This document shows, one piece after another, positions 1,223-36,126 of a stretch of DNA of 36,126 nucleotides. The stretch comes from Falseniella ignava CCUG 37419 (lineage in GTDB: Bacteria > Bacillota > Bacilli > Lactobacillales > Aerococcaceae). Within the stretch, counting starts at the first letter, position 1. Each line of letters opens with the position of its first letter. Below the pieces are notes generated by a model. The model did not search any database. It saw only the letters and a list, made by a program, of their open reading frames with translations, and was not told the DNA's origin. The DNA lies in contig NZ_JH932301.1 in NCBI RefSeq assembly GCF_000301055.1, positions 493,115-529,240 of the forward strand, read 5' to 3'. A program made the translations under genes and the position numbers.

Positions 1223-2080
1223 TTATTCTATCAAAATAGACTCTAATTCTTTCTTCTTGGAGTTAGCATTCGCAAAATCTTTGAAGTGAATTAAAATATC
1301 TATTGCTTTATTACATAATTCAGTTCCCTGTTCGATTGATCCAGATTTAATCAAATAAATACCTTTTAAATAGTTTTTTTGGTTAAGTTCAAAGAAAGAC
1401 TTTGATCCATCTAATAATAATTCTGCTTTATTTATCATCTCTATTGCTTGATTTAAACAATTATTTTCAAGACAATAATTAGCCATGTTCAAGATAACCA
1501 TCGCGTAAGGACCTTTTTTCTTGTTAATCGTCGCATATTTTTCAATTTTTTTTAATACAGTATGTTGAAATGATAGAACTTGAGTTGGATTTAAGCAAAA
1601 AATAATATTTCCAAACAAAATAATCTCATAATGTCCCCAATCATTTACGTTATGCAAATATCTCATGACTATATCAATTTCACTACTATTAAACTCTGTA
1701 TCGGTAATGGAATTAAGAATTTGCTTTGCAACAATTCCATAATGTAAATATCTACTATTATTTGTTTCTTCATATAATTGTTGTTGCCGTAATATCAACG
1801 TTTCTAACATTACAATATTATTGGACTGTTTGGCTAATCTTAGATTATCAATAAATGAGTTAATTTCTGAGGTGTAAGTATCAAATGTTTCACTTACAAA
1901 TTCATTATATTTTACATTTAAACGATCAAGTAATCGAAGAAAAGTCTGAACCTTAATATCAGATTTACAATTTTCAAAATGTGATAAGAATTGTGGCGAA
2001 ACAATATCGTGAGCTAGTTCAGCCTGAGTCATATTTTTACTTATTCTAATCTTTTTAATAATACCCCCTATTATATTCAT
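1223..2080 (-). CDS. Rgg/MutR-family transcriptional regulator
   Basis: Likely controls the neighbouring lanthipeptide operon. Residues about 5-60 form an XRE-type helix-turn-helix (IRISKNMTQAELAHDIVSPQ followed by FLSHFENCKSDI). The remaining 220 residues are helical and repeat-like, as in the Rgg/GadR/MutR family. At 285 aa the length is normal for that family. MutR-type proteins are known activators of lantibiotic clusters in streptococci, and many Rgg proteins sense short secreted peptides. The gene is divergent from lanC across a 727-bp AT-rich control region, and its own base composition is equally AT-rich, so it probably travelled with the cluster. A Shine-Dalgarno (GGAGGG on the minus strand) lies just before the ATG at 2080. 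I found no convincing cognate short hydrophobic peptide gene beside it. Confidence 0.8.
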   Translation of the reverse strand: MNIIGGIIKKIRISKNMTQAELAHDIVSPQFLSHFENCKSDIKVQTFLRLLDRLNVKYNEFVSETFDTYTSEINSFIDNLRLAKQSNNIVMLETLILRQQQLYEETNNSRYLHYGIVAKQILNSITDTEFNSSEIDIVMRYLHNVNDWGHYEIILFGNIIFCLNPTQVLSFQHTVLKKIEKYATINKKKGPYAMVILNMANYCLENNCLNQAIEMINKAELLLDGSKSFFELNQKNYLKGIYLIKSGSIEQGTELCNKAIDILIHFKDFANANSKKKELESILIE

Positions 2081-2180: not shown

Positions 2181-2337
2181 GAAATAATATTTTCAATCAA
2201 TAAATTACCTAATTAATTTATAATGATTATTCCAGTGTATTTATTATTTTGATTGATATTATTAAAGACATTTTTCCAATCACGATTCGCCTAGACAATT
2301 GATTATTAAATGCAAATATTTATTGAAGTTACTTTGG

Positions 2338-2539
2338 ATGAGAGAATTGGCTTTTGGTTTGACCATGGGAAACAGCCCTCTGGGGGTGAGTGGCAAAAAA
2401 TTGCATTCATTCGTTCTGTTTAAACCCGTCTCATGTGTATATATTTGATGAACCTACCAATTATCTTGATGGAGTGTCTAAGGAGAAAATACATGCTTAT
2501 ATAAATAATCTCAGTGTCTCCTCAATAGTTATTCATATT
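2338..2539 (+). pseudogene. Fragment of lanT (duplicate of 8061-8263)
   Basis: This segment matches the ATPase part of lanT at 8061-8263 with three substitutions and one deleted base, and the match breaks off sharply on both sides. It covers the signature motif PSGGEWQKIAFIRS and Walker B region DEPTNYLD. The missing G near 2419 shifts the frame and creates a TAA right after FIRSV. It cannot make a transporter. The near identity shows the copy is recent compared with the age of the genes. Confidence 0.93.
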
Positions 2540-2610
2540 TTACCTAATTATATATATTAAATAAATTTAACTTATTAAAATATTTTTTAATATAAAAACA
2601 CTTTTATAAA

Positions 2611-2807: not shown

Positions 2808-3983
2808 ATGAATAATGAATACACTAAAATAATTAACGAACTAAGCTCCTTAACATTAGAAAATATTCATCGAAAAAATCAATGTGATAAACCATTCTAT
2901 CCTTTGGATCTTCTCAGTTATCTGACCTTAACTAACATTAGATTCTTAGAATATGATAACCATGAAAAATATATAATTTTTAAAAATGAATTTTATACTT
3001 CTTTAAATAAATTGAGGGTTGATGTTGATAACATTTCACTTTGGAATGGAATTACGACTGTCTTATTCGTAATAGAAACAATACTAGAAAATGACAAAAT
3101 TGGAGAAATGACTAAAGATTTGAAAGTAGTCTTTAATCAATTATATGGAAAGTTTGGCGATTCATTAGAGGTTTATTTAAAACGAAAAAACTTTGTGTTT
3201 CAAGACTTAGATATTGTTAGTGGTGTATCAGGAGTAATAAGTTATCTTGTTCAGAGTAAATATAATTTATCTACTAATAAAAAAGTATTACAACAGTTAT
3301 TAGAACTTATTGTTGAATTATCTTGTGCAACTAGTGATTCAGAAAGTTCTCCAATAAGTAATATGAATAATTCTTTTATAGGGTTTTCTCATGGGGAAAT
3401 AGGCCTATACACTATGGCATATAAAGCATCAAGGTTATTAAATGATATTGATTCTGAGAAAAAAATGATTAGTATGATTATTTCTATTTTGGGAAAGCGC
3501 TTTAACAATAATCTTTTGAAAAACTTTGATATAAACGCATTAAATAATTCCTGGTGTCATGGTTACGCTGGTTTGATTAAATCATATAGAATTATTAGAA
3601 ATTCATCTTTTGTGTCACCAAAAATAAGGTCGTTGTACGATAATTTTGTTGATATATATGTGAATAATATGATTCATTTAAGTAAAGATAATTTTTATGG
3701 ATCATCTATAATTTGCCATGGCTTAAGTGGATTGATATATGAAGTTAGTTTAATTGATTACGTTTCTTATCCTGAAGAAATCATTAATTATTTAATGAGA
3801 ATGCTTATGGAGATGTACAAACCGGATACATATGTTAAATTTACAGATCATTATTTGGCTCTCGAATATAATCGGGGGGAGATTCCAACAGATATAATTA
3901 ATGGGTTTGAAGGAGTTTTGTTGGTAATAAATAGTGTTATTAATAAGAAACCTTACATTGGAGATTTGATATTTGGGGGATGA
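2808..3983 (+). CDS. lanC: Lanthipeptide cyclase LanC
   Basis: Catalyses addition of cysteine thiols to dehydrated Ser/Thr of the precursor, forming (methyl)lanthionine rings in the cytoplasm with LanB and LanT. The 391-aa product has the LanC barrel motifs: SGVSGVISYL near 138-147, SHGEIGLY near 194-201 (the catalytic-histidine region), NSWCHGYAG near 248-255 and ICHGLSG near 302-308. C250, C303 and H304 match the three zinc ligands of NisC-type cyclases. It is the first gene of the operon; the ATG follows AGGGGA with about 8 nt spacing. The lanB start lies two bases after its stop, so the two are probably translated together. Very AT-rich codon use supports transfer into this genome. Confidence 0.93.
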   Translation: MNNEYTKIINELSSLTLENIHRKNQCDKPFYPLDLLSYLTLTNIRFLEYDNHEKYIIFKNEFYTSLNKLRVDVDNISLWNGITTVLFVIETILENDKIGEMTKDLKVVFNQLYGKFGDSLEVYLKRKNFVFQDLDIVSGVSGVISYLVQSKYNLSTNKKVLQQLLELIVELSCATSDSESSPISNMNNSFIGFSHGEIGLYTMAYKASRLLNDIDSEKKMISMIISILGKRFNNNLLKNFDINALNNSWCHGYAGLIKSYRIIRNSSFVSPKIRSLYDNFVDIYVNNMIHLSKDNFYGSSIICHGLSGLIYEVSLIDYVSYPEEIINYLMRMLMEMYKPDTYVKFTDHYLALEYNRGEIPTDIINGFEGVLLVINSVINKKPYIGDLIFGG

Positions 3984-3984
3984 T

Positions 3985-6648
3985 ATGGAATATATTAGTT
4001 CATATAGGCAATCAATAAATTATAGTTTGTTAGATGCGTTTAAATATCTCAATATAACAAACGATGATGATCTTATTGATTTTGCTAAAGGTAATAAAGC
4101 ATTTATCAATTGCCTAGCATTTTCTAATTTTAATATAATTGCATATTTGTATAATGATAATTTAAAACCTAAAAGAAAGAAAAATTTAGCAAAAACAATA
4201 TATAAATATTTAAATAGATTTTATTTTAATCACATGCCTAATAATTTATGGGCATATAGTAGACCAGTTATTGGCGATTTTCAAGATAAATTGAAGGATA
4301 ACAGAGTCAGACTTGAATATTTGAGCAAAACCGATAGCTTATCTACAAAATCACCTGTAAGGAATGTATATAGAAATCCCGAAATAATTGTAGGTGATCG
4401 TTATTTTTACTTAATAAATTCGTTAAAGGATAATAAATCAAAGTGGAAATTGAAGATAAATAATTTTCTTGAAGAAGTTTACTTAAATACAGGCACACTA
4501 ATTAGCATGTCAAGACTATTTGAAGAGATTGATATATGTACTAATTTTGAAGAGTTTTTAAAAGATATTGAATATTTAGTCAGTATTGATTTTCTAAAGT
4601 GTAAGTTAGATGCCAATATATATATACATAAAATTATTGACTTTGATGAAGAAGAATTTATTAATTTTAACTATATAAATAATAAACAATTAATTCAAGA
4701 GTTGTCTTTAAATGATAATTTTGATAAAGGAAGACAGTCATTTTTTATAAATTTATACAAAAATAAGTTGAATATCTGTGGATTATTTTCTAGAAATAGT
4801 TTTTCTTCAGTTAGAAATATCGTTAGTATTTTTACTTTAGAACATAATTATGATGCTGCAATGGAATGCTTGACTAAGTACTTAGATGAGTATTACGGTT
4901 TAAATACATTTATTCCTTTAGCTGAAATAATTAATTCTCCTTTCTTTGATTCTCTGACAAGCGAAAAATCTATGGGTGTGATTTCGTCTCAAATGGAAAG
5001 ACTTATAAGGGAGTGTAATGACCAGAAATATGAAGAAGTATCTATAGATAATTTGATTGGTAGTCTTGAGCTTGAAGCTTCAATACCTGAAACTTTTTCG
5101 GTTCCCATACAATGCTTAGAAAATGGATTATATTCAATTAACTTGAATAAAGTTTCATCTTGTGCAAATTCTTTCGATAACCGCCTTTTGTATAGTGTCC
5201 CTGAAATTAATTTGCTGGCTGAAGATTTAATTATTGAAAATATAAATCAATCAAGTTTTATTTCGCATTTAAAACACCGAAACGAAAAGTTTTATAATGA
5301 TAGATATTTTACTGATTTTGAATTGCCAGGCTATAACAATATTAAGTTAGAAGAGATGTACATTGGTTACTTCAATAATAATATTAATCTATATGTAAAG
5401 AAGGAAGGTCAATATAAATCAACAATAATTAATGTGCCTTCAATGCTACATGTGAATTCTTTTTCTGAAACTATGCAAAAGTTAATAAGATTATTTGGTA
5501 GAGATGCGGAGTTTAGAACCAATATTTTAGACAGGTATTCATATCAGTCATTTCTTCCCAGGATAAAATATAAAGAATGGGTAATTAGAAGTAAAACGTG
5601 GATATATATTGTGCTTGATGATGATTTTTCATTGTTTTATGAAGATTTTAAGCAATTCATTAAGAAATGGAAAATACCACAAATAGTAGAAATATTTATA
5701 GCTGAAAATCCTTTGACAATAAATATCCATTCAGAATATCACATAAGAAAAATTTTTAATAATATTAAAAATGGTACAAGAATAATAATTTCAGAAATGT
5801 TAAATACTGTTGATAACTATCCTGGAGAGTTTATTTTTAATTATAGTTCTGAAAATCAATATTCTCATATAATAGAAGTTGATGAAGATTCACCTTTGCA
5901 GACTTCTCTGCTTGATACTATATCATATGGAATAAAATGGGTATATTATTCAGTGAAAGTCTCTGTAGCATTTCAGAATGAAATGCTTGTGAAAATTTAC
6001 GATTTAATTGAATCCGAACCATCACTAATAAATTTTCATTTTGTTAGATATACAGAAAATAATATAAACACTTTGAGACTAAGATTTGAACTAAATAATA
6101 AAGAACAATCTTTGTATATTATAGAAAAGATAGAATCAGTTATAGGAAGTCACATTTATTCCGTAAATCGCTTTACACCAGAAATTAATAGGTATGGTGG
6201 CAAAAAGTCGTTTGAAGATATATATTCATATTTCACTTTAGATAGTATGTTTGTAATAAAAATAATAAAGAACAAAAAAATAAATAACCGATTGTTATTA
6301 ACTGATTGTCTATCATATTTTCATATATTATCGGTTTATGATCCTGATGCATTCATAGAAATAAGGAATAAGTATTTACAAGGTAATCTAAAACAGACAA
6401 GACAAACCATAGATAAATTTATAAATGATAATACATTGAATAAGCTTTTTATGGATTTTTATTTATCAAACATGATTGGGATAATTTCTATGCTAAAAGA
6501 ACTGAATTTGAATGAGAGAGTAGATATTTATATGTCAATATTGCATATGCATAGGAATCGACTGTTAAATGATAATAATTACATGGATGAGTTGTCGATG
6601 ATAAAAGCTAGCTTATATTCACTATCTATTAAAAAGATGAATGAATAA
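3985..6648 (+). CDS. lanB: Class I lanthipeptide dehydratase LanB
   Basis: Dehydrates Ser and Thr of the precursor through glutamyl-tRNA-dependent glutamylation and elimination, as known for NisB. The 887-aa product has the long N-terminal glutamylation domain and, from about residue 645, the SpaB-C-type elimination domain. Motifs there include NFHFVRYTENN, LRLRFEL and FTPEINRYGGKKSFE, typical of that fold. Length is a little under NisB (993 aa) but both domains are present, so it is a full LanB, not a split thiopeptide type. I chose the ATG at 3985: GGGGG lies just upstream and the start is two bases after the lanC stop; an in-frame TTG at 3973 lacks a site. Order lanC-lanB-lanT is unusual compared with the common lanB-lanT-lanC. 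Confidence 0.93.
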   Translation: MEYISSYRQSINYSLLDAFKYLNITNDDDLIDFAKGNKAFINCLAFSNFNIIAYLYNDNLKPKRKKNLAKTIYKYLNRFYFNHMPNNLWAYSRPVIGDFQDKLKDNRVRLEYLSKTDSLSTKSPVRNVYRNPEIIVGDRYFYLINSLKDNKSKWKLKINNFLEEVYLNTGTLISMSRLFEEIDICTNFEEFLKDIEYLVSIDFLKCKLDANIYIHKIIDFDEEEFINFNYINNKQLIQELSLNDNFDKGRQSFFINLYKNKLNICGLFSRNSFSSVRNIVSIFTLEHNYDAAMECLTKYLDEYYGLNTFIPLAEIINSPFFDSLTSEKSMGVISSQMERLIRECNDQKYEEVSIDNLIGSLELEASIPETFSVPIQCLENGLYSINLNKVSSCANSFDNRLLYSVPEINLLAEDLIIENINQSSFISHLKHRNEKFYNDRYFTDFELPGYNNIKLEEMYIGYFNNNINLYVKKEGQYKSTIINVPSMLHVNSFSETMQKLIRLFGRDAEFRTNILDRYSYQSFLPRIKYKEWVIRSKTWIYIVLDDDFSLFYEDFKQFIKKWKIPQIVEIFIAENPLTINIHSEYHIRKIFNNIKNGTRIIISEMLNTVDNYPGEFIFNYSSENQYSHIIEVDEDSPLQTSLLDTISYGIKWVYYSVKVSVAFQNEMLVKIYDLIESEPSLINFHFVRYTENNINTLRLRFELNNKEQSLYIIEKIESVIGSHIYSVNRFTPEINRYGGKKSFEDIYSYFTLDSMFVIKIIKNKKINNRLLLTDCLSYFHILSVYDPDAFIEIRNKYLQGNLKQTRQTIDKFINDNTLNKLFMDFYLSNMIGIISMLKELNLNERVDIYMSILHMHRNRLLNDNNYMDELSMIKASLYSLSIKKMNE

Positions 6649-6661
6649 GAGTTGAATAATA

Positions 6662-8407
6662 ATGACTAAATTAAAAACTTCAGTAATCAAGCATTTAAAT
6701 GTAATTAAATTTATTTTTTTCATTGACAAAGTATATTTCTTTTTTAATTTGTATGTCAATTTATTAAGCGGATTATTACCATTTGTAAATGTCTATTTAA
6801 CTAGGAGTATATTAAATAATATTCACACTGTAGATATATCATTGTTCAAAAGTCACCTTTCAAAGTACTTGATATTCTTGATATTTCAGATGCTATTTAT
6901 CAAGTTAACTTCTATCTTAGGTTTTAAAATAAGAAATAAATTTATCTTTTTGCTAGATAGTATAATATTATCAAAGAGTAAACATATTGATTTAGAGGAT
7001 TACGAGAATAGTGCGATATATAATACTATTAGGCAAATATTTGATCAGAGCGATAAAAGTGTGGCAAATTATTTTGAGGATTTTTTGAACGTTATAAAAA
7101 GTTTTTTGATTTTCATTACAAATTCCTATTTTTTATTCGAATTAAATGCATACTTAATTGTTCTGATTATATCTTTTTCTATACTAAAGTCGATAGTGAA
7201 CCTAATAATCGGTAACAAAAGTTTTGAGTTATATAAATTAAAGACACCAAACGAACGAGAAAAATGGTATTACAAATTTATTTATCAAAATGAAAATACT
7301 TATAGAGAAATAAAATCAAACAATGCTTTTAACTTCTTTATAAAAAAATATAAAATAGCTTTCAATAAAGTATTTAAACTAGAATATAACTTGCTACTTT
7401 CAACTGTTAAATTGGAATTTATTCCAGATCTGCTAGATATTTTTTCTGCGATTGCATTATTAGTAATGATTTATTTAAATTTTGATTATCTAAAAATTTC
7501 TTTTGGAAGTATTATTAGCTACACACAAAGCTTTCAAAATATAAAATCATCTGTTGAGACCTTATTTTATGTTTGTTCCAGTCTTTCAACTAAATATTTA
7601 TATGTAAGTATTATCATTGAATTTTTAAATAAATTCAATGATAACCATGACGATGTTAAGAATATGTTATATCAAATTGATTCTATTGAAACAATAGAGA
7701 TTGAAAATTTATCTTTTCAAAGAAACGATAAATTTATATTAGACAAAATATCGTACAAATTTGAGAGAGGAAATCATTATTTGATTGTTGGAGCTAATGG
7801 GTCTGGTAAAACATCTCTTGCTAAGATATTATCGGGATTGTATAAAAACATTGAAGGGAATATTATAATAAACGGTAGAATTGTTGACCCTTCTAATTTC
7901 TCTGTATTTAGAAATAAAATTAATGTACTATTTCAAGATTCCGTTCAATTTGAGTTGACTTTACGTGAAAATTTGATATTTGACAAAGCTATTAATGATA
8001 AAAAAATCAAATCGGAAATTTATAAAATTTCCCCGAACTTGTTATCATTATTTGATTTCAATGATAGAATTGGCTTTTGGTTTGACTATGGGAAACAGCC
8101 CTCTGGGGGTGAGTGGCAAAAAATTGCATTCATTCGTTCTGTGTTAAACCCGTCTGATGTGTATATATTTGATGAACCTACCAATTATCTTGATGGAGTG
8201 TCTAAGGAGAAAATACATGCTTATATAAATAATCTCAGTGTCTCCTCAATAGTTATTCATATTAGTCATGATTATAATTATATTATGAATTTCAATGGCA
8301 TTATATTAATGTTGAATAATGGGAAGATTGTTAAATCGGGATCTTATAATGAACTTGAGAAAGATCCAATATTTAGAAAATTAATTTTAGGAGGTTCTTA
8401 TGAATAA
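6662..8407 (+). CDS. lanT: Lanthipeptide exporter LanT (ABC transporter, NisT type)
   Basis: Exports the modified precursor. The 581-aa product has an N-terminal membrane domain of about six helices (residues 15-325) and a C-terminal ATPase: Walker A GANGSGKTS, signature PSGGEWQKIAF, Walker B YIFDEPTNYLD and switch HISHD. There is no N-terminal C39 peptidase domain, so it belongs to the NisT type that leaves leader removal to a separate protease. The start has only a weak ribosome site, and the stop overlaps the next gene by 8 bp. Part of the ATPase (8061-8263) is duplicated as a broken fragment upstream of lanC. Confidence 0.9.
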   Translation: MTKLKTSVIKHLNVIKFIFFIDKVYFFFNLYVNLLSGLLPFVNVYLTRSILNNIHTVDISLFKSHLSKYLIFLIFQMLFIKLTSILGFKIRNKFIFLLDSIILSKSKHIDLEDYENSAIYNTIRQIFDQSDKSVANYFEDFLNVIKSFLIFITNSYFLFELNAYLIVLIISFSILKSIVNLIIGNKSFELYKLKTPNEREKWYYKFIYQNENTYREIKSNNAFNFFIKKYKIAFNKVFKLEYNLLLSTVKLEFIPDLLDIFSAIALLVMIYLNFDYLKISFGSIISYTQSFQNIKSSVETLFYVCSSLSTKYLYVSIIIEFLNKFNDNHDDVKNMLYQIDSIETIEIENLSFQRNDKFILDKISYKFERGNHYLIVGANGSGKTSLAKILSGLYKNIEGNIIINGRIVDPSNFSVFRNKINVLFQDSVQFELTLRENLIFDKAINDKKIKSEIYKISPNLLSLFDFNDRIGFWFDYGKQPSGGEWQKIAFIRSVLNPSDVYIFDEPTNYLDGVSKEKIHAYINNLSVSSIVIHISHDYNYIMNFNGIILMLNNGKIVKSGSYNELEKDPIFRKLILGGSYE

Positions 8408-9668
8408 TAGTTTGAAAAATATAAGGTCTATGATTTCAATTTTTTATCAAAGTCCTCTTGTCAAATGGCTGATAACTTTCTCTGGTCTAAGTATTATTTT
8501 AATGATGATTTATACATATCCTTTCACTCCCGTGTCTGGTCCAGTCTATCAGACAGAAGAGGAATTCAATATGATTAGCGATGTTGCGAAGGTTAAACAT
8601 TTGTACAAGCCGAGTAACTATCAATTACAAGAATATTATGATGACTACTTAGATGATGGTAGTATTGGGGAGTTGATGAATGTTGAGAATTTCGACGATG
8701 TTCTGGAACGTAATCGATTATTAAAGGAAGTTTACGAGGATGCTTTAGCCAAGCTTGAAAAAGGGATTAAAACTGAAGATCCTAAACAAATTTTACGAGA
8801 TAATATATATTTTCAAAAAATTAATATTCTTTTTCTTTTCTGGGGACTGGACAGAATTGCTTTGCCTGAAAATATCTATTCCCAATTTATTGATTACAAT
8901 CATTTAGCAATACAAAATTATGCTAAAACAAATCAAGTAGGTGAAGCCTATTTAGATGACAAATATAGTTATGGAAATGTTTTAGAATGGATACTATTAA
9001 AACAAGTACATCAAAATTATATTTTCTCTTTCTGGGGAATTGTAATCTTATTATCCTCGTTAGCCATGGTAGTCATTCAACACAAGTTTAATATCTCACA
9101 CTACAGCCTTTTAGCCCATAATCCTATTAAGAATAGCTTAAAATCGATAGTCATGAATGCAAGCAATATTTTCTTTTTATATATCTCTTTTCTTCTTATC
9201 TATACAGTTGGAACAGTTATTGGATTTCTCTATCAAGTGTACATTAATAATGAATCACTCATTGACAATATTCTATATGCATGGTCAAATGCTAATTTGC
9301 AAGTACTGTATCCTTTAGTTATCGGTCTGGTTTCCATTATGTTTATTTACTCATTGTCCAAGTTAATCTTAAATATAACACGACAATCCGCTACGACAGC
9401 TTTTATGGTTATAACGCTTTATTCGTTACCTTATTTATTAGTATTAACCCAGGAGAATTTTCTTTTATTTAATCAGTGGAATCCTTTCTTATATATTGAT
9501 ATTGAGAAGAATATTGGAAATTTCAGAGACTTTATTTTTGATCTTAAAGCAAATCTTTATTTGTTCGAGAACCACTTTGCAATCTTTTACTTATTAGGCT
9601 TAACATTGATTATATCGGGTGCTGATTATTTATATACTAAACATAGAACACATCGAATCACTATATAA
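8400..9668 (+). CDS. ABC transporter permease, probable lanthipeptide immunity (LanE/G-like)
   Basis: Integral membrane protein, 422 aa, with one N-terminal helix (about 24-42), an acidic extracellular domain of some 160 residues, and about five further helices from 208 to 415. This is the layout of ABC-2 type permeases with a large loop after the first helix. It overlaps the lanT stop by 8 bp (AGGAGG site inside lanT) and is followed 12 bp later by the ATPase gene. Position points to a LanFEG-like self-protection pump, but it is much longer than typical LanE or LanG (about 250 aa). A second export function is an alternative. Confidence 0.7.
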   Translation: MNNSLKNIRSMISIFYQSPLVKWLITFSGLSIILMMIYTYPFTPVSGPVYQTEEEFNMISDVAKVKHLYKPSNYQLQEYYDDYLDDGSIGELMNVENFDDVLERNRLLKEVYEDALAKLEKGIKTEDPKQILRDNIYFQKINILFLFWGLDRIALPENIYSQFIDYNHLAIQNYAKTNQVGEAYLDDKYSYGNVLEWILLKQVHQNYIFSFWGIVILLSSLAMVVIQHKFNISHYSLLAHNPIKNSLKSIVMNASNIFFLYISFLLIYTVGTVIGFLYQVYINNESLIDNILYAWSNANLQVLYPLVIGLVSIMFIYSLSKLILNITRQSATTAFMVITLYSLPYLLVLTQENFLLFNQWNPFLYIDIEKNIGNFRDFIFDLKANLYLFENHFAIFYLLGLTLIISGADYLYTKHRTHRITI

Positions 9669-9680
9669 AGGAGGACCAGT

Positions 9681-10553
9681 ATGCATATCAAATTTCGAGA
9701 AGTTGGTTACTCAGTCCATAATCCTATCTTAAAAGATATAGACTTAGCATTTCAACCAGGCACAATTGTTGCATTAGTTGCTCCTAATGGGATGGGGAAA
9801 TCTACATTATTTAAAGGGATTATGAATAGCTTAGTTAATGTAAAAGGAGATATATGTTTACAAAATCATAATTATAATTATCCACTGACTGAAGGCAATC
9901 GCGTTGATATTTATCAACAGATATCTTTAATGGTTGATCAGAAAGATTTAATTGGTTACAAAACGGGTCGAGAACATATTAATTTTGCAAGACAGAATTG
10001 GAATAGTCAGATATTATCAGATGAAGTGATTGATTTGTTGAAGATGAGTGATTATGTTGATAAGAAAGTCTCTCAATACTCATTAGGGATGAAACAACGT
10101 TTATGCTTAGCGATGCAATTAGCGACCGACACTCCTATAATGCTGATGGATGAAGTGATGAATTCATTAGATATCGTGAATGTTGATTTGATATCAAATA
10201 TTCTAATTAATTTAAGAGAGCAAGGAAAAATTATTATCATAGCGTCTCACTTATTAGATAATCTTTCATTGTATTCAGATACGGTTATATTTATTAAGAG
10301 TAAGGATGAAATAATTCAAATTGATACCGATAAACTAGAAAAAATATTAACCCTATTTATGCGAAAAAATCACACATTGTCTAAGACTTTTGAGAAAGCA
10401 CTTTTTTCTGAACCATTCAAGAACAAATTCCAAATTAATATCGATCAGATTACAATGGATGATATTGTTGAATATATGAATCATCCAATGATTCGAACCG
10501 TATCAGTCGGAGATAAGAGTATTACAGACTACTATCATGAATTTTACCTTTAA
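9681..10553 (+). CDS. ABC transporter ATPase, probable LanF-like immunity component
   Basis: A 290-aa ATP-binding subunit that would power the two flanking permeases. Visible motifs are Walker A APNGMGKST (about 36-44), signature YSLGMKQRLCLAM and Walker B IMLMDEVMNSLD. The usual Pro after the catalytic Glu is replaced by Val. The C-terminal 70 residues form the small extra domain seen in BcrA/LanF-like proteins. It has a strong AAAGGAGG site and sits between two permeases of similar design, which suggests a heteromeric pump. Immunity is inferred from cluster context; the ATPase family itself is certain. Confidence 0.85.
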   Translation: MHIKFREVGYSVHNPILKDIDLAFQPGTIVALVAPNGMGKSTLFKGIMNSLVNVKGDICLQNHNYNYPLTEGNRVDIYQQISLMVDQKDLIGYKTGREHINFARQNWNSQILSDEVIDLLKMSDYVDKKVSQYSLGMKQRLCLAMQLATDTPIMLMDEVMNSLDIVNVDLISNILINLREQGKIIIIASHLLDNLSLYSDTVIFIKSKDEIIQIDTDKLEKILTLFMRKNHTLSKTFEKALFSEPFKNKFQINIDQITMDDIVEYMNHPMIRTVSVGDKSITDYYHEFYL

Positions 10554-10597
10554 TAATACAAGAAAATAGTGAGCGATTATAGAGCGAGGAGAATGAA

Positions 10598-11800
10598 ATG
10601 ATAAAGTTTTTAAACAATAGGATATATTGGTTTCTCTGGGTGGGGACTTTTTTACTATTATCGTTTACTCTGTGGCTAAGTTTAAATAAGATATCAGTGG
10701 AAAGTCATATTCAAGAAATTGAGCGACTATTATACCAAGTAGATCATTATACGGATATATTAAAACAAGACGAAATATTGCTAGTAGAAAGTCAAAATTC
10801 AGATGCCGATGTAGCAATGAGTGAACAACCAGGTTTTGATTATGAAGCATGGGGAGTAGACGAAATGGAGAGCATCAAGTACAATTTGGAAGAGCTTCAA
10901 ACGATACGTAAGTATTTGAATTCTATGAACGAGCAACTGAAACATAGTAATTCTTTCACGGATCGTTATCATCTTTCTAACTACTACTATCATCAGAAAT
11001 TAAACAGTCTAAAATTTCGAGGAGATTTAAGAAGTGAGAAATCATTCTTAATACGTTTAGGAACTCTGAATTTATTAGAGCATGAGTCAATAGCTCAATA
11101 TATTACAGAATCAAAATTATCAGAAGAGAAGTTTATTAGCTTAAAATCCAACCAACATTTTATCACCTTAGTAGCATCAATATATATATTAATCCCATTA
11201 TTAATTTTAAGTACAGAAAACAATTTTCTAAGTCGTTATAAAACATCATTATATAAGTACTTGCCTGAAAAATATAATAAATTATTACTATCTTTTAGTT
11301 TACCTAAAATTATTAGAGTCTGGGCATTTGCGATATTCTTTAGAATTGTCTTTTATATCATGAGTTATTTCATGTTAAATATATGGCCGATATATGGAAT
11401 TATACCTATTAGTGTTCAAGGGTCAATTAGCTTATTGAATGTGACGATTGTTTTCTTGATTTACATTGTTTTGTTAACTTTAATAACGATGATTGCTTTA
11501 CTAATTAATGATATAACGCATTATTTTATTTCAGATAATATCTTTTCAATTATAGTCTCATCCATATTAATATTCTTAACAATATTCCAATTGATACCAA
11601 GAATATTAATGTTTATGGAACGCTGGGTCACGTTACCTTTCTGGACTCATACGATGTCGATTGATAGATTAAATCTCGAAGTGGGTGTGCCGTCTTCTTT
11701 AGATAACATATTAATATATATAGTATTTTTAGTCCTTATTGCGACAGTCCTTATTGTTATTCATAAATACTTATGGCAAAGAGCAGTATTTAGAAATTAA
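10598..11800 (+). CDS. ABC transporter permease, second subunit (LanE/G-like)
   Basis: A 400-aa membrane protein of the same plan as the gene at 8400: N-terminal helix (about 11-30), an extracellular and partly coiled-coil domain to about residue 185, then about five helices to the C-terminus. It starts at an ATG after GAGGAG and follows the ATPase by 44 bp. It probably pairs with the 8400 permease in one pump. No protease or peptidase motif is visible that could make it the leader peptidase. Confidence 0.7.
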   Translation: MIKFLNNRIYWFLWVGTFLLLSFTLWLSLNKISVESHIQEIERLLYQVDHYTDILKQDEILLVESQNSDADVAMSEQPGFDYEAWGVDEMESIKYNLEELQTIRKYLNSMNEQLKHSNSFTDRYHLSNYYYHQKLNSLKFRGDLRSEKSFLIRLGTLNLLEHESIAQYITESKLSEEKFISLKSNQHFITLVASIYILIPLLILSTENNFLSRYKTSLYKYLPEKYNKLLLSFSLPKIIRVWAFAIFFRIVFYIMSYFMLNIWPIYGIIPISVQGSISLLNVTIVFLIYIVLLTLITMIALLINDITHYFISDNIFSIIVSSILIFLTIFQLIPRILMFMERWVTLPFWTHTMSIDRLNLEVGVPSSLDNILIYIVFLVLIATVLIVIHKYLWQRAVFRN

Positions 11801-11864
11801 AATCCAATAAAGCTAGATTCGTAATTGAGATACTTAAAATATTTAGAGAAAGGAGGAAAGTGAT

Positions 11865-12059
11865 GTGAAATTTGAAATTGAATTTTACAGGAGTAGTAAT
11901 GAAAACACTAATCAGACTGTGATTACTTTACAAACTCCAGGATGTACATATACATTAGACTGCAATGACCCAGATCCATATAAGACGACTAGTCTGGTTT
12001 GTACAAAGCCAAGGAATAATATATGTAGAATAAATCCTAATTCAATTGACAACAAATAG
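11865..12059 (+). CDS. lanA: Candidate class I lanthipeptide precursor peptide
   Basis: A 64-aa peptide that starts at GTG behind a near-perfect AGGAGGAAAG site. Residues F3-E4-I5-E6 resemble the F-(N/D)-L-(D/E) box that LanB recognises. The C-terminal part has four Cys (27, 33, 46, 54), each preceded by Thr or Ser, so up to four thioether rings are possible. T24-P25-G26-C27 matches the second ring of nisin-type peptides, but the residue before it is Gln where nisin has the Cys closing ring A. The tail NPNSIDNK is long and polar. It is the last gene of the cluster, whereas lanA is usually first. A cut after Gln17 would leave a 47-residue core; that site is a guess. No other small Cys/Thr-rich ORF is found in the cluster. 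Confidence 0.8.
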   Translation: MKFEIEFYRSSNENTNQTVITLQTPGCTYTLDCNDPDPYKTTSLVCTKPRNNICRINPNSIDNK

Positions 12060-12090
12060 AATTTGAGTATTGTTTTTGTTTTCGACTATA

Positions 12091-12117
12091 TTGATAGTGT
12101 AAAGACTGTAGTATAAT
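12091..12117 (+). promoter_or_regulatory. Candidate promoter upstream of the structured element
   Basis: TTGATA (12091-12096) and a perfect TATAAT (12112-12117) are separated by 15 bp, which is short. Transcription from here would enter the folded region at 12161. Confidence 0.4.
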
Positions 12118-12160
12118 GTTGTGAAAATAGTATTGTGACAAAAATATTTTTTGATACTTC

Positions 12161-12408
12161 AAAACGAACAATGATTATCTATAATGCACCGCCCCGAGCC
12201 AAAGTCTCGGGAGTTGCCCAGGTATGATGAGGGACTAAGATTTCCTTTGTGAATCTTAGTCCCTCACATGCGTTAGCTTCAATGGTTAAAAGTTAAAGCT
12301 CTAAACCATTGATATGCGACGCTACGCATAAACAGTCTGTAATGAGTAAACTCATAACAGACTGTTTTAAGTCCATGCATACTCCTTCTGATAATCATTG
12401 TTCGTTTT
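12161..12408 (+). ncRNA. Highly structured element: possible ncRNA or miniature mobile element
   Basis: A perfect 19-bp inverted repeat (12161-12179 with 12390-12408, containing CGAACAATGATTATC) closes a 210-nt region packed with further helices. These are CCCGAG/CTCGGG (12193-12211), a perfect 15-bp hairpin (12228-12242 with 12252-12266), ATGCG-TAGC with GCTACGCAT around an inner CAATGGTT/AACCATTG hairpin, and an 11+5-bp hairpin (12330-12367) with a TAAA loop. T-run bases follow the closing helix. No ORF fits. I do not recognise a known RNA class. A transcribed multibranch RNA and a MITE with terminal inverted repeats are both possible; no clear target duplication is seen. Strand is assumed from the candidate promoter. 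Confidence 0.5.
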
Positions 12409-12411
12409 TCG

Positions 12412-12448
12412 TATCCGCAAAATATTACTTTACAATGTTTTGCGGATA
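12412..12448. repeat. Long inverted repeat (hairpin)
   Basis: TATCCGCAAAA (12412-12422) pairs perfectly with TTTTGCGGATA (12438-12448), and four weaker pairs extend inward. There is no T-run on the plus side. It lies between the structured element and the convergent thioredoxin gene, and could end transcription or belong to the element. Confidence 0.55.
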
Positions 12449-12532
12449 ATAATTGAATTATTCTTTATAATTTTTTCTCCAGTAACTATTACACAACTAA
12501 TATCACAGTCCCAAATAAGTTGCCATTACGAA

Positions 12533-13876: not shown

Positions 13877-14026
13877 AATTCGCTCACTTTCTTTAATTTT
13901 TTTCATTATGACATAGATTCAACTCTAACTCCAAAGACTATGCTTTATCCAAGGCGTCACTTCACAATTTGAGCGCATTATTCCACAATAGAATAGATGA
14001 AATTATGTATTTAAATGAGGGGTATT

Positions 14027-14763
14027 ATGAATCACAATCAAGAAGCCACACGTTTTGATCGGATCAAAATTATAGTTGAGCAAGACGGACTACAAAATTT
14101 GACAGACGCTACAGTGATGGTCCTAGGGCTCGGAGGGGTCGGTTCATCATGTGTCGAAGCTCTAGCGAGGGGCGGGGTCGGGAGATTAATTGTCATCGAT
14201 AGCGATATTGTAGAAATTACTAATATTAATCGCCAAGCGATTGCATTTGAATCGACGATTGGACTCCCCAAAGCCGATGTGATGACAGCAAAGATTCACC
14301 AAATTAATCCTAACTGTCATGTTATTGCAGAGCAAGTGGAAATCTCACCAGAGAACTGTGCCGATGTATTCAGTCAATACCCAAAGCCAGATTATGTGAT
14401 TGAATGTATTGATTCAGTGCTCGCTAAATCTTATATTGCTGCGTGGTGTCAGGCTCACGATATACCGATTGTTGCTTCGATGGGAGCTGCTAACAAAATG
14501 GATCCAATGCAACTTACCTTTGCGGACATAAGACAAACGATGAACTGCCCACTCTCACGTAAAATGCTCGAAGAATATCGTAAACGCGGGGTCGAACATT
14601 TAGATGTCTTATTCTCAAAAGAATTACCGAAAAAAAGAATCCTATCAGTTCAAGTCGGGCTCATACATTAGGCACCATGTCTTACATGCCTCCAATAATG
14701 GGGCAAATGTTAGCTAGTTTTGTTATTCGTCGTCTTGTCGCTCAAGATAGCAAGGAGGTGTGA
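14027..14763 (+). pseudogene. tcdA: tcdA-like gene with frameshifts (tRNA t6A cyclase/dehydratase)
   Basis: The first about 200 codons read as a ThiF/E1-like enzyme: GLGGVGSSC nucleotide loop, DSDIVEITNINRQ, DYVIECIDS and GAANKMDP. In the family it converts t6A37 of tRNA to its cyclic form. After residues FSKELPKK the frame is lost near an A-run at about 14630 and stops at 14671. The expected ending (LGTMSYMPPIMGQM and on to the stop at 14761-14763) continues in another frame, so about two indels are needed. An intact paralogue lies at 27030, by eye about 60 percent identical, so this is not a recent copy. The start is the ATG at 14027 behind GAGGGG; the upstream in-frame ATG at 14015 lacks a site. 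Confidence 0.85.
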
Positions 14764-27029: not shown

Positions 27030-27749
27030 ATGACGGATGCACGATTTGATCGGGTTAAATTATTACTAAAAGAGACAGGTTTGGAGAAGTTGCAAGCGGC
27101 CACAGTGATGGTCTTGGGGCTGGGAGGTGTCGGATCGAACTGTGCTGAGGCGCTCGTTCGTGGCGGCATTGGTCGATTAATTTTAATTGATTGCGACGTG
27201 GTGGATATTACCAATATGAACCGACAAGCGGTTGCTTATACGGAGACCATCGGGCGGGCAAAAGCGGATGTGATGGCAGAAATCGTTCATGCGATTAATC
27301 CAGCTTGCCAAGTTGAGGCCGAAGTCTTAGAATTGCATCCTGATACGATTGCTCAAGACTTAGCGCACTTCACCCGACCAGACTATGTTATCGACTGCAT
27401 CGATTCGGTACGCGCTAAAGCGGCTGTGGCTGCTTGGTGCCAGGAGGAATCTTTGCCACTGGTTGCTGCTATGGGTGCGGCGAATAAATTCGATCCTGAG
27501 CAACTGACCTTTAGCGATATTCGTAAAACGAGTTATTGCCCATTAGCGAAAGTCATGCGGCGGGAGTATCGTAAAGTCGGCGTTGAACATGTGGAAGTCA
27601 TCTATTCGACCGAACCAGCCTTCAAGTTCGAGAGCGAAGCGGGAGCGGATCGTTCGACCCGACTTGGTACCGTCTCGTATATGCCACCGATTATGGGACA
27701 AATGCTCGCAGGTAAAGTGATTCGGCGACTTTCAGGATTAGAACCGTAG
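27030..27749 (+). CDS. tcdA: tRNA threonylcarbamoyladenosine dehydratase (TcdA)
   Basis: ATP-dependent E1-like enzyme that cyclises t6A37 of ANN-decoding tRNAs to ct6A. The 239-aa product has the nucleotide loop GLGGVGSNCAEALVRGGIG, DCDVVDITNMNRQAV, DYVIDCIDSV and MGAANKFDP, and the family's conserved end RLGTVSYMPPIMGQMLAG. It follows the ABC-F gene by 54 bp and is followed by a TatD-family gene, so the three may be co-transcribed. A decayed paralogue of the tcdA-tatD pair lies at 14027-15314; this copy is complete and should carry the function. Confidence 0.92.
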   Translation: MTDARFDRVKLLLKETGLEKLQAATVMVLGLGGVGSNCAEALVRGGIGRLILIDCDVVDITNMNRQAVAYTETIGRAKADVMAEIVHAINPACQVEAEVLELHPDTIAQDLAHFTRPDYVIDCIDSVRAKAAVAAWCQEESLPLVAAMGAANKFDPEQLTFSDIRKTSYCPLAKVMRREYRKVGVEHVEVIYSTEPAFKFESEAGADRSTRLGTVSYMPPIMGQMLAGKVIRRLSGLEP

Positions 27750-34478: not shown

Positions 34479-34890
34479 TTACGAATGTGAAGTCAAGCTA
34501 TGAAGCTTCATCTGCGAGCGGTTGAGATGAAGTTAATGGGGAAGGAACTTCATTTGAGTGGGGTTGAGTTGGAGTTGTTGCGTGTGGAACTCCATCTCAT
34601 CGGATTGAGTTGAACAAATTGTGTGCGTTTGTTCATCTTGATGGGTTGAGCTGAACAACTAGTGTAAGTTTGTTCAACTTGTCGGGTTGAGCTGAACAAC
34701 TAGTGTGCGTTTGTTCAACTTGTCGGATTGAGTTGAACAACTAACGTGCATTTGTTCATCTTGATGGGTTGAGTTGAACAACCAGTGTGCCTTTGTTCAT
34801 CTTGATGGGTTGAGCTGAACAACTAGTGTAAGTTTGTTCAACTTGTCGGATTGAGTTGAACAAATAGGCTGTACTTGTTCACCTATCATT
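34479..34890. repeat. Array 1: nine 41-bp tandem repeats with hairpin arms, plus one degenerate unit
   Basis: GTTGAG/ATTGAG starts units at 34521, 34563, 34604, 34645, 34686, 34727, 34768, 34809 and 34850, so the period is 41 bp (42 for the first). A weaker unit precedes at 34479. Each unit is: GTTGAG, left arm, 11-nt loop, right arm, tail near TCTTGATGG or CTTGTCGG. Arms pair in every unit but differ in sequence: ATGAAGTT/AACTTCAT in unit 1, TGGAGTT/AACTCCA in unit 2, TGAACAA/TTGTTCA in units 3 to 9. The units at 34645 and 34809 are identical. The last unit overlaps the stop codon of the NERD gene, so the array forms its 3' untranslated region. The period is not a multiple of three and no ORF runs through. 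Confidence 0.93.
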
Positions 34891-35894: not shown

Positions 35895-36056
35895 ATGGAG
35901 GTTATTGAGTCGGAGTTATTGGTCTCGGAACTCCATCTCGGGGAGGTTGAGTTGGAGTTAGTTGTGCGGAAACTCTATCTGAAGGCGGTTGAGTCGGAGT
36001 TAGTTGTGCGGCAACTCCATCTCGGGAAGGTTGAGTTAGAGTTAGTTGTGCGGTAA
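35895..36056 (+). CDS. Doubtful 53-aa ORF made of the array 2 repeats
   Basis: Because 42 is divisible by three, one frame stays open from an ATG at 35895 to a TAA at 36054, giving 14-residue repeats such as VELELVVRKLYLK and VESELVVRQLHLG. There is no ribosome site, the frame breaks in the fourth unit, and array 1 of the same family does not keep a frame. I think it is a by-product of the repeats and list it only so it is not lost. Confidence 0.12.
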   Translation: MEVIESELLVSELHLGEVELELVVRKLYLKAVESELVVRQLHLGKVELELVVR

Positions 36057-36126
36057 CTCCATCTCGGGAGGTTGAGTTGGAGTTAGTTGTGCGGAAACTC
36101 TATCTGAAGGCGGTTGAGTCGGAGTT
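35904..36126. repeat. Array 2: 42-bp tandem repeats with hairpin arms (runs off the window)
   Basis: Units start at 35904, 35946, 35988, 36030, 36071 and 36113 (period 42, once 41). They have the same GTTGAG head and a loop near AGTTGTGCGG, with arms GGAGTT/AACTCC or TGGAGTT/AACTCTA (one G-T pair). The unit at 36071 equals that at 35946 over all 42 bases and the next unit starts the same way, so there is a higher-order repeat of about 125 bp. The array begins about 100 bp upstream of the NERD start codon and belongs to the same family as array 1, whose unit at 34563 has the same arm type. Confidence 0.92.

Follow-up and report, generated by a model that had tools for sequence, protein, structure and literature searches.

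We found that a run of co-directional genes in Falseniella ignava CCUG 37419 closes with an open reading frame (ORF) of 64 codons that probably encodes the precursor of a divergent class I lanthipeptide. The evidence comes from sequence comparison and comprises the gene run itself, the homology of its dehydratase (LanB) over the full length, the intact motifs of the elimination domain and of the cyclase (LanC), and a peptide in which both residues aligned with the ring-A partners of nisin are replaced. The window, by which we mean the whole stretch of DNA analysed (36,126 nt), holds the following genes and gene remnants of the cluster.

1223-2080, minus strand: Rgg/MutR-type regulator, divergent from the operon (PF21259 Rgg_C, 107.7 bits; TIGR01716, 101.4 bits)
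2333-2568, plus strand: broken duplicate of the 3' part of lanT, 236 nt (direct repeats D1/D2 with 8056-8292, 92-93% identical)
2808-3983, plus strand: lanC, cyclase (PF05147, 86.8 bits, cut-off 23.2; conserved HG, WC and CHG motifs)
3973-6648, plus strand: lanB, divergent full-length dehydratase, 891 aa (start at TTG 3973 or ATG 3985; PF14028 and LanB profile)
6662-8407, plus strand: lanT, exporter ABC protein (28.0-29.5% identity to LanT from class I clusters of L. salivarius, S. equinus and P. sordellii)
8400-9668, plus strand: probable immunity ABC permease, 422 aa (judged by its location and by hydrophobic segments identified visually)
9681-10553, plus strand: probable immunity ABC ATPase, LanF-like (TIGR03740 galliderm_ABC, 97.1 bits, below the curated cut-off of 309.75)
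10598-11800, plus strand: probable second immunity ABC permease, 400 aa (putative role)

The first-pass annotation had assigned the peptide to a class I lanthipeptide cluster, and the LanC and LanB families (PF05147 as above; PF14028 at 70.6 bits, cut-off 24.4), together with a NisT-type exporter, bear this out. Aligned with five other LanCs, LanC retains the HG, WC and CHG motifs, and it matches the cyclase part of LicM2 in the PDB (E 8e-5), in agreement with its identification; these motifs presumably hold the zinc ligands, as in NisC. The best 25 of at least 5000 plasmid matches of the exporter include LanT proteins from L. salivarius, S. equinus and P. sordellii whose genes lie next to lanB and lanC. 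The Pfam matches of lanT include no peptidase domain, and we saw no protease gene in the cluster. The permease encoded at 8400-9668 had no family match and the one at 10598-11800 none above cut-off (Pfam and TIGR), and neither matched a plasmid; a permease match to carboxypeptidase T in the PDB (best E 0.014) was taken as chance. The GC content of the cluster block is 24-31%, compared to 37-49% in the kilobases from position 14001 on, a difference that suggests acquired DNA. Under the class I calling rule given in PMC13289728, namely LANC_like together with Lant_dehydr_N or Lant_dehydr_C, the cluster itself would be flagged.

The candidate precursor gene and its signals are located as follows.

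11847-11855, plus strand: Shine-Dalgarno (SD) sequence AGAAAGGAG of the precursor gene, an exact 9-nt anti-Shine-Dalgarno match
11865-12059, plus strand: candidate precursor gene lanA, GTG start, 64 aa (translation, nisin-type alignment, profile, SD, ORF survey)
11934-11945, plus strand: TPGC, residues 24-27, predicted ring B (T24-C27; translation and nisin A alignment)

The ORF list and the translation agree with the first-pass description of a 64-aa, GTG-initiated ORF with four cysteines (residues 27, 33, 46 and 54) in the last position of the cluster. Each cysteine was also said to have a serine or threonine nearby, and such a residue indeed lies 3 to 7 positions N-terminal of all four (T24-C27, T28/T30-C33, T41/T42/S43-C46 and T47-C54). 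The spacing between the SD sequence and the GTG codon is 9 nt. SD matches of at least 8 nt at a spacing of 4-12 were detected by a first script for 6 of 2037 start codons on the plus strand; a second script, in which 9-nt matches were also permitted, gave seven starts with an SD match, three of which lie under the single site AGAAAGGAG. Because the other two of these starts, at 11860 and 11863, open ORFs of only 2 and 1 codons, respectively, the start at 11865 is the sole one with an ORF under this site. When we surveyed ORFs of at least 18 aa lying wholly inside 1044-1222, 2081-2815 or 11790-12532, counting one ORF per stop codon, only the 64-aa ORF combined at least three cysteines with an SD match of at least 6 nt (1 of 22), and no other credible precursor was present among these 22 intergenic ORFs, which upholds the view that this ORF is the precursor of the cluster. 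The first-pass annotation had further reasoned that the GTG start and last position could have hidden the gene from automated callers; the remark in PMC6165006 that small bacteriocin genes can escape automated annotation fits this in a general way.

Codon usage places the 64-aa ORF with out-of-frame sequence, a measure that has little power at such a length. With amino acid composition included, the ORF scored lower than all of 127 in-frame windows, and its score was equalled or exceeded by 49% of 254 out-of-frame windows; for synonymous choice alone, 3.8% of 132 in-frame windows were as low and 67% of 264 out-of-frame ones as high. Scores of in-frame and out-of-frame windows overlap to a large extent, and two annotated precursors that served as positive controls scored below the in-frame mean of their own clusters, yet above the 64-aa ORF.

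The likeness of the peptide to nisin-type precursors is suggestive but not conclusive. The Smith-Waterman score against nisin A is 40 (shuffles, 22.4, s.d. 4.4; 0.3% of 2000 as high), that against nisin U also 40 (0.95% of shuffles as high), that against subtilin 33 (3.35%) and that against epidermin 30 (6.65%), so that the top 1% of shuffles is reached for two of the four reference precursors, a weak likeness. Scored with a profile built on six class I precursors, the peptide reaches 6.6 bits, which 16 of 3000 shuffles and one of 297 other ORFs of the window exceed, and BLASTP against the set of compared proteins finds the L. salivarius precursor at E 0.032. The search against precursor families proposed in the first-pass annotation came out negative: no such family in Pfam or TIGR recognises the peptide at E 0.1. 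A SpaA_4 match in Pfam (16 bits, cut-off 27.3) was taken as chance, as were matches of the peptide in the PDB (best E 0.16).

The ring names used for the aligned positions are those of nisin. In a gap-free alignment, TVITLQTPGC of the peptide stands opposite TSISLCTPGC of nisin A. Nisin Thr2 is retained as T18, Ser5 is replaced by threonine (T21), and the T-P-G-C of ring B is preserved, in line with the earlier reading of TPGC as a ring-B motif preceded by glutamine in place of the ring-A cysteine. Beyond that reading, in this alignment the ring-A serine is gone as well, so that both partners are missing (Ser3 to Val19, Cys7 to Gln23). Further along, C33 falls opposite Cys19 at the end of ring C, with T28 or T30 as its possible partner; the hinge is longer by an inserted Asp-Pro-Asp-Pro; and C46 and S43 stand opposite Cys28 and Thr25 of ring E, with Leu44 in place of Cys26 of ring D. 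C54, preceded by T47, is an extra cysteine within a longer tail. The composition of the core in cysteine, serine and threonine fits a lanthipeptide. As for the leader, the 'FEIE box' reported earlier is present at residues 3-6, where a box of the FNLD type is expected, although it is only a loose match to FxLx. No cleavage site of the GASPR or PQ type precedes the core in the 64-aa translation.

According to PMC12506125, CTPGC is the most conserved region among 164 distinct nisin-like cores, with CTAGC as a variant, and lipid II is bound by rings A and B. Neither motif occurs in the peptide, which has QTPGC and valine at the position of the ring-A serine and falls outside that description. With ring A missing, the two-ring grip on lipid II that characterises nisin is probably absent or altered; the further step, from QTPGC to no binding of lipid II, is one that we infer. 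We found no QTPGC precursor in the parts of the lanthipeptide literature searched. A peptide with ring B but no ring A would be a test of the extent to which the grip on lipid II can be dismantled in nature.

Turning to the dehydratase, the elimination domain (PF14028) of LanB scores over its cut-off, and the glutamylation domain PF04738 scores 20.3 bits, below its cut-off of 28. A profile built from 21 LanB rows, in which two genes are each represented by two rows (L030/L034 and L028/L036), matches the protein over positions 15-987 of 1014 (domain score 147.4 bits), which indicates a full-length LanB even though PF04738 is under its cut-off. The elimination residues R702, R704, E737, R740 and H858, the last by analogy the counterpart of NisB H961, are retained; R786 and R826 are NisB numbers. 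The glutamylation motif reads SIYKYYKRSYYRATPFG in the L. salivarius LanB and, aligned gap-free with it, TIYKYLNRFYFNHMPNN in the window LanB. With NisB numbers assigned by motif, R83 (R82) and R464 (R404) are retained, and Y80, W616 and H961 are kept as well. By contrast with R83, the position of R87 is occupied by asparagine (N86), although each of the 20 reference rows extending that far has arginine there. Methionine replaces T89 (M88; threonine in 17 of 20 rows, methionine in one gene that is counted twice), arginine D121 (R113; aspartate in 11 of 20 rows) and asparagine D299 (N260; aspartate in 14 of 21 rows, asparagine in one), D121 and D299 being positions without strict conservation in these rows, and the position of R14 (arginine in 17 of 21 rows) is an alignment gap. 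Thus, of the six residues listed as essential for glutamylation in PMC12241602, with MadB numbers, and PMC12506125 (R83, R87, T89, D121, D299 and R464), four are changed in two alignments. Judged from these alignments, the glutamylation site of LanB is degenerate and its elimination residues are intact, a point that is new compared to the first-pass annotation.

How severe these changes are can be gauged from NisB mutants studied in vivo. As reported in PMC4341554, Y80F and H961A abolish dehydration; R83A/M leaves 0-3 dehydrations and R87A 4-7, without secretion; 0-7 remain in R14A and W616A; and T89A, D121A and D299A remain slightly under normal, with secretion. Set against this account, most residues with the worst single-loss effects are kept in the window LanB, R14 excepted. 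LanB may therefore still work, weakly or differently, or its glutamylation may be dead. A partner glutamylation enzyme elsewhere was considered and rejected, given that the F. ignava genome has no PF04738 match at 1e-5 and a single PF14028 match, LanB itself. The PDB sequence search with LanB gave no match, and an AlphaFold2 model of LanB from the single sequence (pLDDT 33.9) was set aside. No LanB with a changed R87 was found in the portions of the literature searched. A LanB with intact elimination that is devoid of the second glutamylation arginine would test which activation residues matter outside NisB.

Given the degenerate glutamylation site, absent or weak modification is a serious possibility. 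The main rivals to the functional reading are decay of the cluster and loss of an original precursor. Under decay, glutamylation by LanB would be gone, and the peptide would be translated but barely modified or not at all, with export and immunity kept. The four changed residues and the unaligned R14 position would be expected under such decay, as would the PF04738 score under the curated cut-off and the broken lanT duplicate at the 5' end. However, six ORFs spanning 9 kb of DNA with 24-31% GC have all stayed open, the elimination and LanC motifs are intact, and Y80, R83, W616 and H961 are kept, whereas the mutants of the changed residues T89, D121 and D299 are only mildly affected and R87A still gave 4-7 dehydrations, albeit without secretion and as the loss of a single residue (PMC4341554). 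We accordingly consider decay unlikely. A bolder version of the functional reading is more doubtful still: precursor and LanB might have changed together, so that a ring-A-less, nisin-derived peptide is made by a dehydratase that eliminates in the standard way but activates without the usual glutamyl-tRNA pocket (asparagine for the second arginine of RxxxRxTPFG). The product would then be a class I lanthipeptide whose activation is altered and whose contact with the target differs from the two-ring cage around lipid II.

Relatives of the two proteins are rare. No LanB relative was detected in the 75 other genomes of the family (76 including its own; E limit 1e-10), and two weak ones each were found in the order sample (395 genomes, limit 1e-8; E 1.1e-12 and 4.9e-9) and the class sample (398 genomes, limit 1e-6; E 1.2e-9 and 1.8e-8), samples that overlap. 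PF04738 is present in 16 of 295 genomes of the order, so that LanBs do occur there and the window LanB is far from them. LanC finds only itself in the 395 order genomes at 1e-8. Pattern scans that require an exact short stretch, and so miss moderate relatives, detected no relative of LanB in genome contigs or viral contigs, and a scan of the same exact-stretch kind none of the peptide in viral contigs. Plasmids gave three partial LanB matches (19-27% identity) and none for the peptide; phages gave none for LanB. Two LanB-containing gene runs of two other genomes (L005/L039, run at L039 1814-10556, and L030/L040, run at L040 2485-11077) have no LanC match in the stretch read; in their LanBs the TPFG motif is likewise changed, but both arginines are kept, and for these two reasons they were set aside as parallels. 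Within the F. ignava genome there is one match each to PF14028, PF05147 and the precursor profile, all inside the cluster. That profile was built from three precursors including the 64-aa peptide, so that the self-match follows by construction; it showed no second precursor elsewhere in the genome; a different precursor there, modified by this LanB/LanC pair, is what the first-pass annotation had named as counting against its reading.

The 5' end of the cluster has been rearranged, as the broken lanT copy upstream of lanC implies. In a local alignment, this copy differs from lanT by eight substitutions and three indel columns, one of which is a 1-base deletion; all eight substitutions are non-synonymous, compared to 80% expected for random changes, which gives no sign of selection either way. 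The original precursor could have been lost here, upstream of lanC, in which case the 64-aa ORF would be a second peptide with a signal, immunity or accessory function. Although the precursor precedes the enzyme genes in the two compared clusters that have an annotated lantibiotic precursor (L012 and L013), and the space before lanC holds the lanT piece and no credible precursor, the Cys/Thr pattern, the TPGC and the leader-like start of the ORF all align with nisin-type precursors, and a LanI-type immunity peptide was rejected since the ORF has, by eye, no hydrophobic signal, lipobox or lipoprotein start; we therefore regard this scenario as quite improbable. Less probable again is that the ORF is not a gene and that TPGC and the Cys/Thr pairs arose by chance, because the out-of-frame-like codon scores, the weak profile score (6.6 bits) and the lack of a peptide homologue, viral contigs and plasmids included, are set against a 9-nt SD sequence that serves no other ORF, the position at the cluster end, a likeness to nisin A above that of shuffles and the lack of a rival precursor in the intergenic stretches.

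Several other elements of the window were noted. A MITE-like element of about 255 nt with terminal inverted repeats occupies 12161-12415 (ends by eye), and a second, shorter copy lies at G000:C2:480177-480322; the region 12155-12425 folds as a multi-arm cloverleaf (minimum free energy -108.4, shuffles -51.4, z -13.5), and Rfam gave no match in the window. By eye, 1085-1210 resembles the end of an IS3-type element with the transposase start broken by a stop, and 14015-14671 and 27030-27749 encode two similar ThiF/TcdA-like proteins. Tandem repeats with 41-bp and 42-bp units are located at 34593-34881 and 35905-36126.

Under the preferred reading, in which the 64-aa ORF encodes a divergent precursor peptide of class I, LanB would bind the N-terminal leader through FEIE in place of FNLD, activate threonines and serines of the core via glutamyl-tRNA and then eliminate glutamate. 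LanBs can discriminate between tRNAs (PMC12241602). LanC would add the cysteine thiols to form up to four rings (T24-C27, T28 or T30-C33, T41/T42/S43-C46 and T47-C54), and LanT would export the peptide. Because no protease gene is seen in the cluster, removal of the leader is assigned to a host protease. The ABC system at 8400-11800 would confer immunity, and the Rgg/MutR-type protein would control expression.

Among known systems, the only plasmid match to the window LanC at 1e-3 lies on an Enterococcus casseliflavus plasmid (L011), which also encodes the best match, among the ATPases compared, to the protein encoded at 9681-10553. This locus contains two further hypothetical proteins (357 and 380 aa, hydrophobic by eye), an ISL3 transposase that adjoins lanC, and no recognised LanB or precursor in the stretch read; its hypothetical proteins match the window permeases unconvincingly (best E 0.89). 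The segment L011 8296-12606, with LanC, the ABC ATPase and the two hypothetical proteins, is possibly the remainder of a related cluster. Pep5-type peptides, described in PMC13289728 as class I lanthipeptides without CTPGC, resemble the window peptide in this respect. The streptin-type cluster of an S. equinus plasmid (L013) has lanT, lanC, lanB and a three-gene immunity ABC system, as does the window, but the annotated streptin contains CTPGSC and its immunity permeases are 240-249 aa long, compared to the 400-422 aa, without a family, of those in the window. Finally, the nisin-like lantibiotics (nisin A and U and the gallidermin/nisin-family peptide of L. salivarius, L012) differ from the window peptide in having CTPGC and not QTPGC, serine and not valine in ring A, a hinge without Asp-Pro-Asp-Pro, cysteine and not leucine in ring D (Cys26 of nisin) and a PR or PQ cleavage site. 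The window cluster is further set apart by the last position of its precursor gene, its Rgg/MutR-type regulator, and a LanB that shares 23.9% identity over 473 positions with that of L. salivarius and has changed glutamylation residues. What the two have in common is the class I enzymes and a NisT-type exporter, the TPGC ring-B motif and the Lys-Thr that begins the C-terminal ring region.
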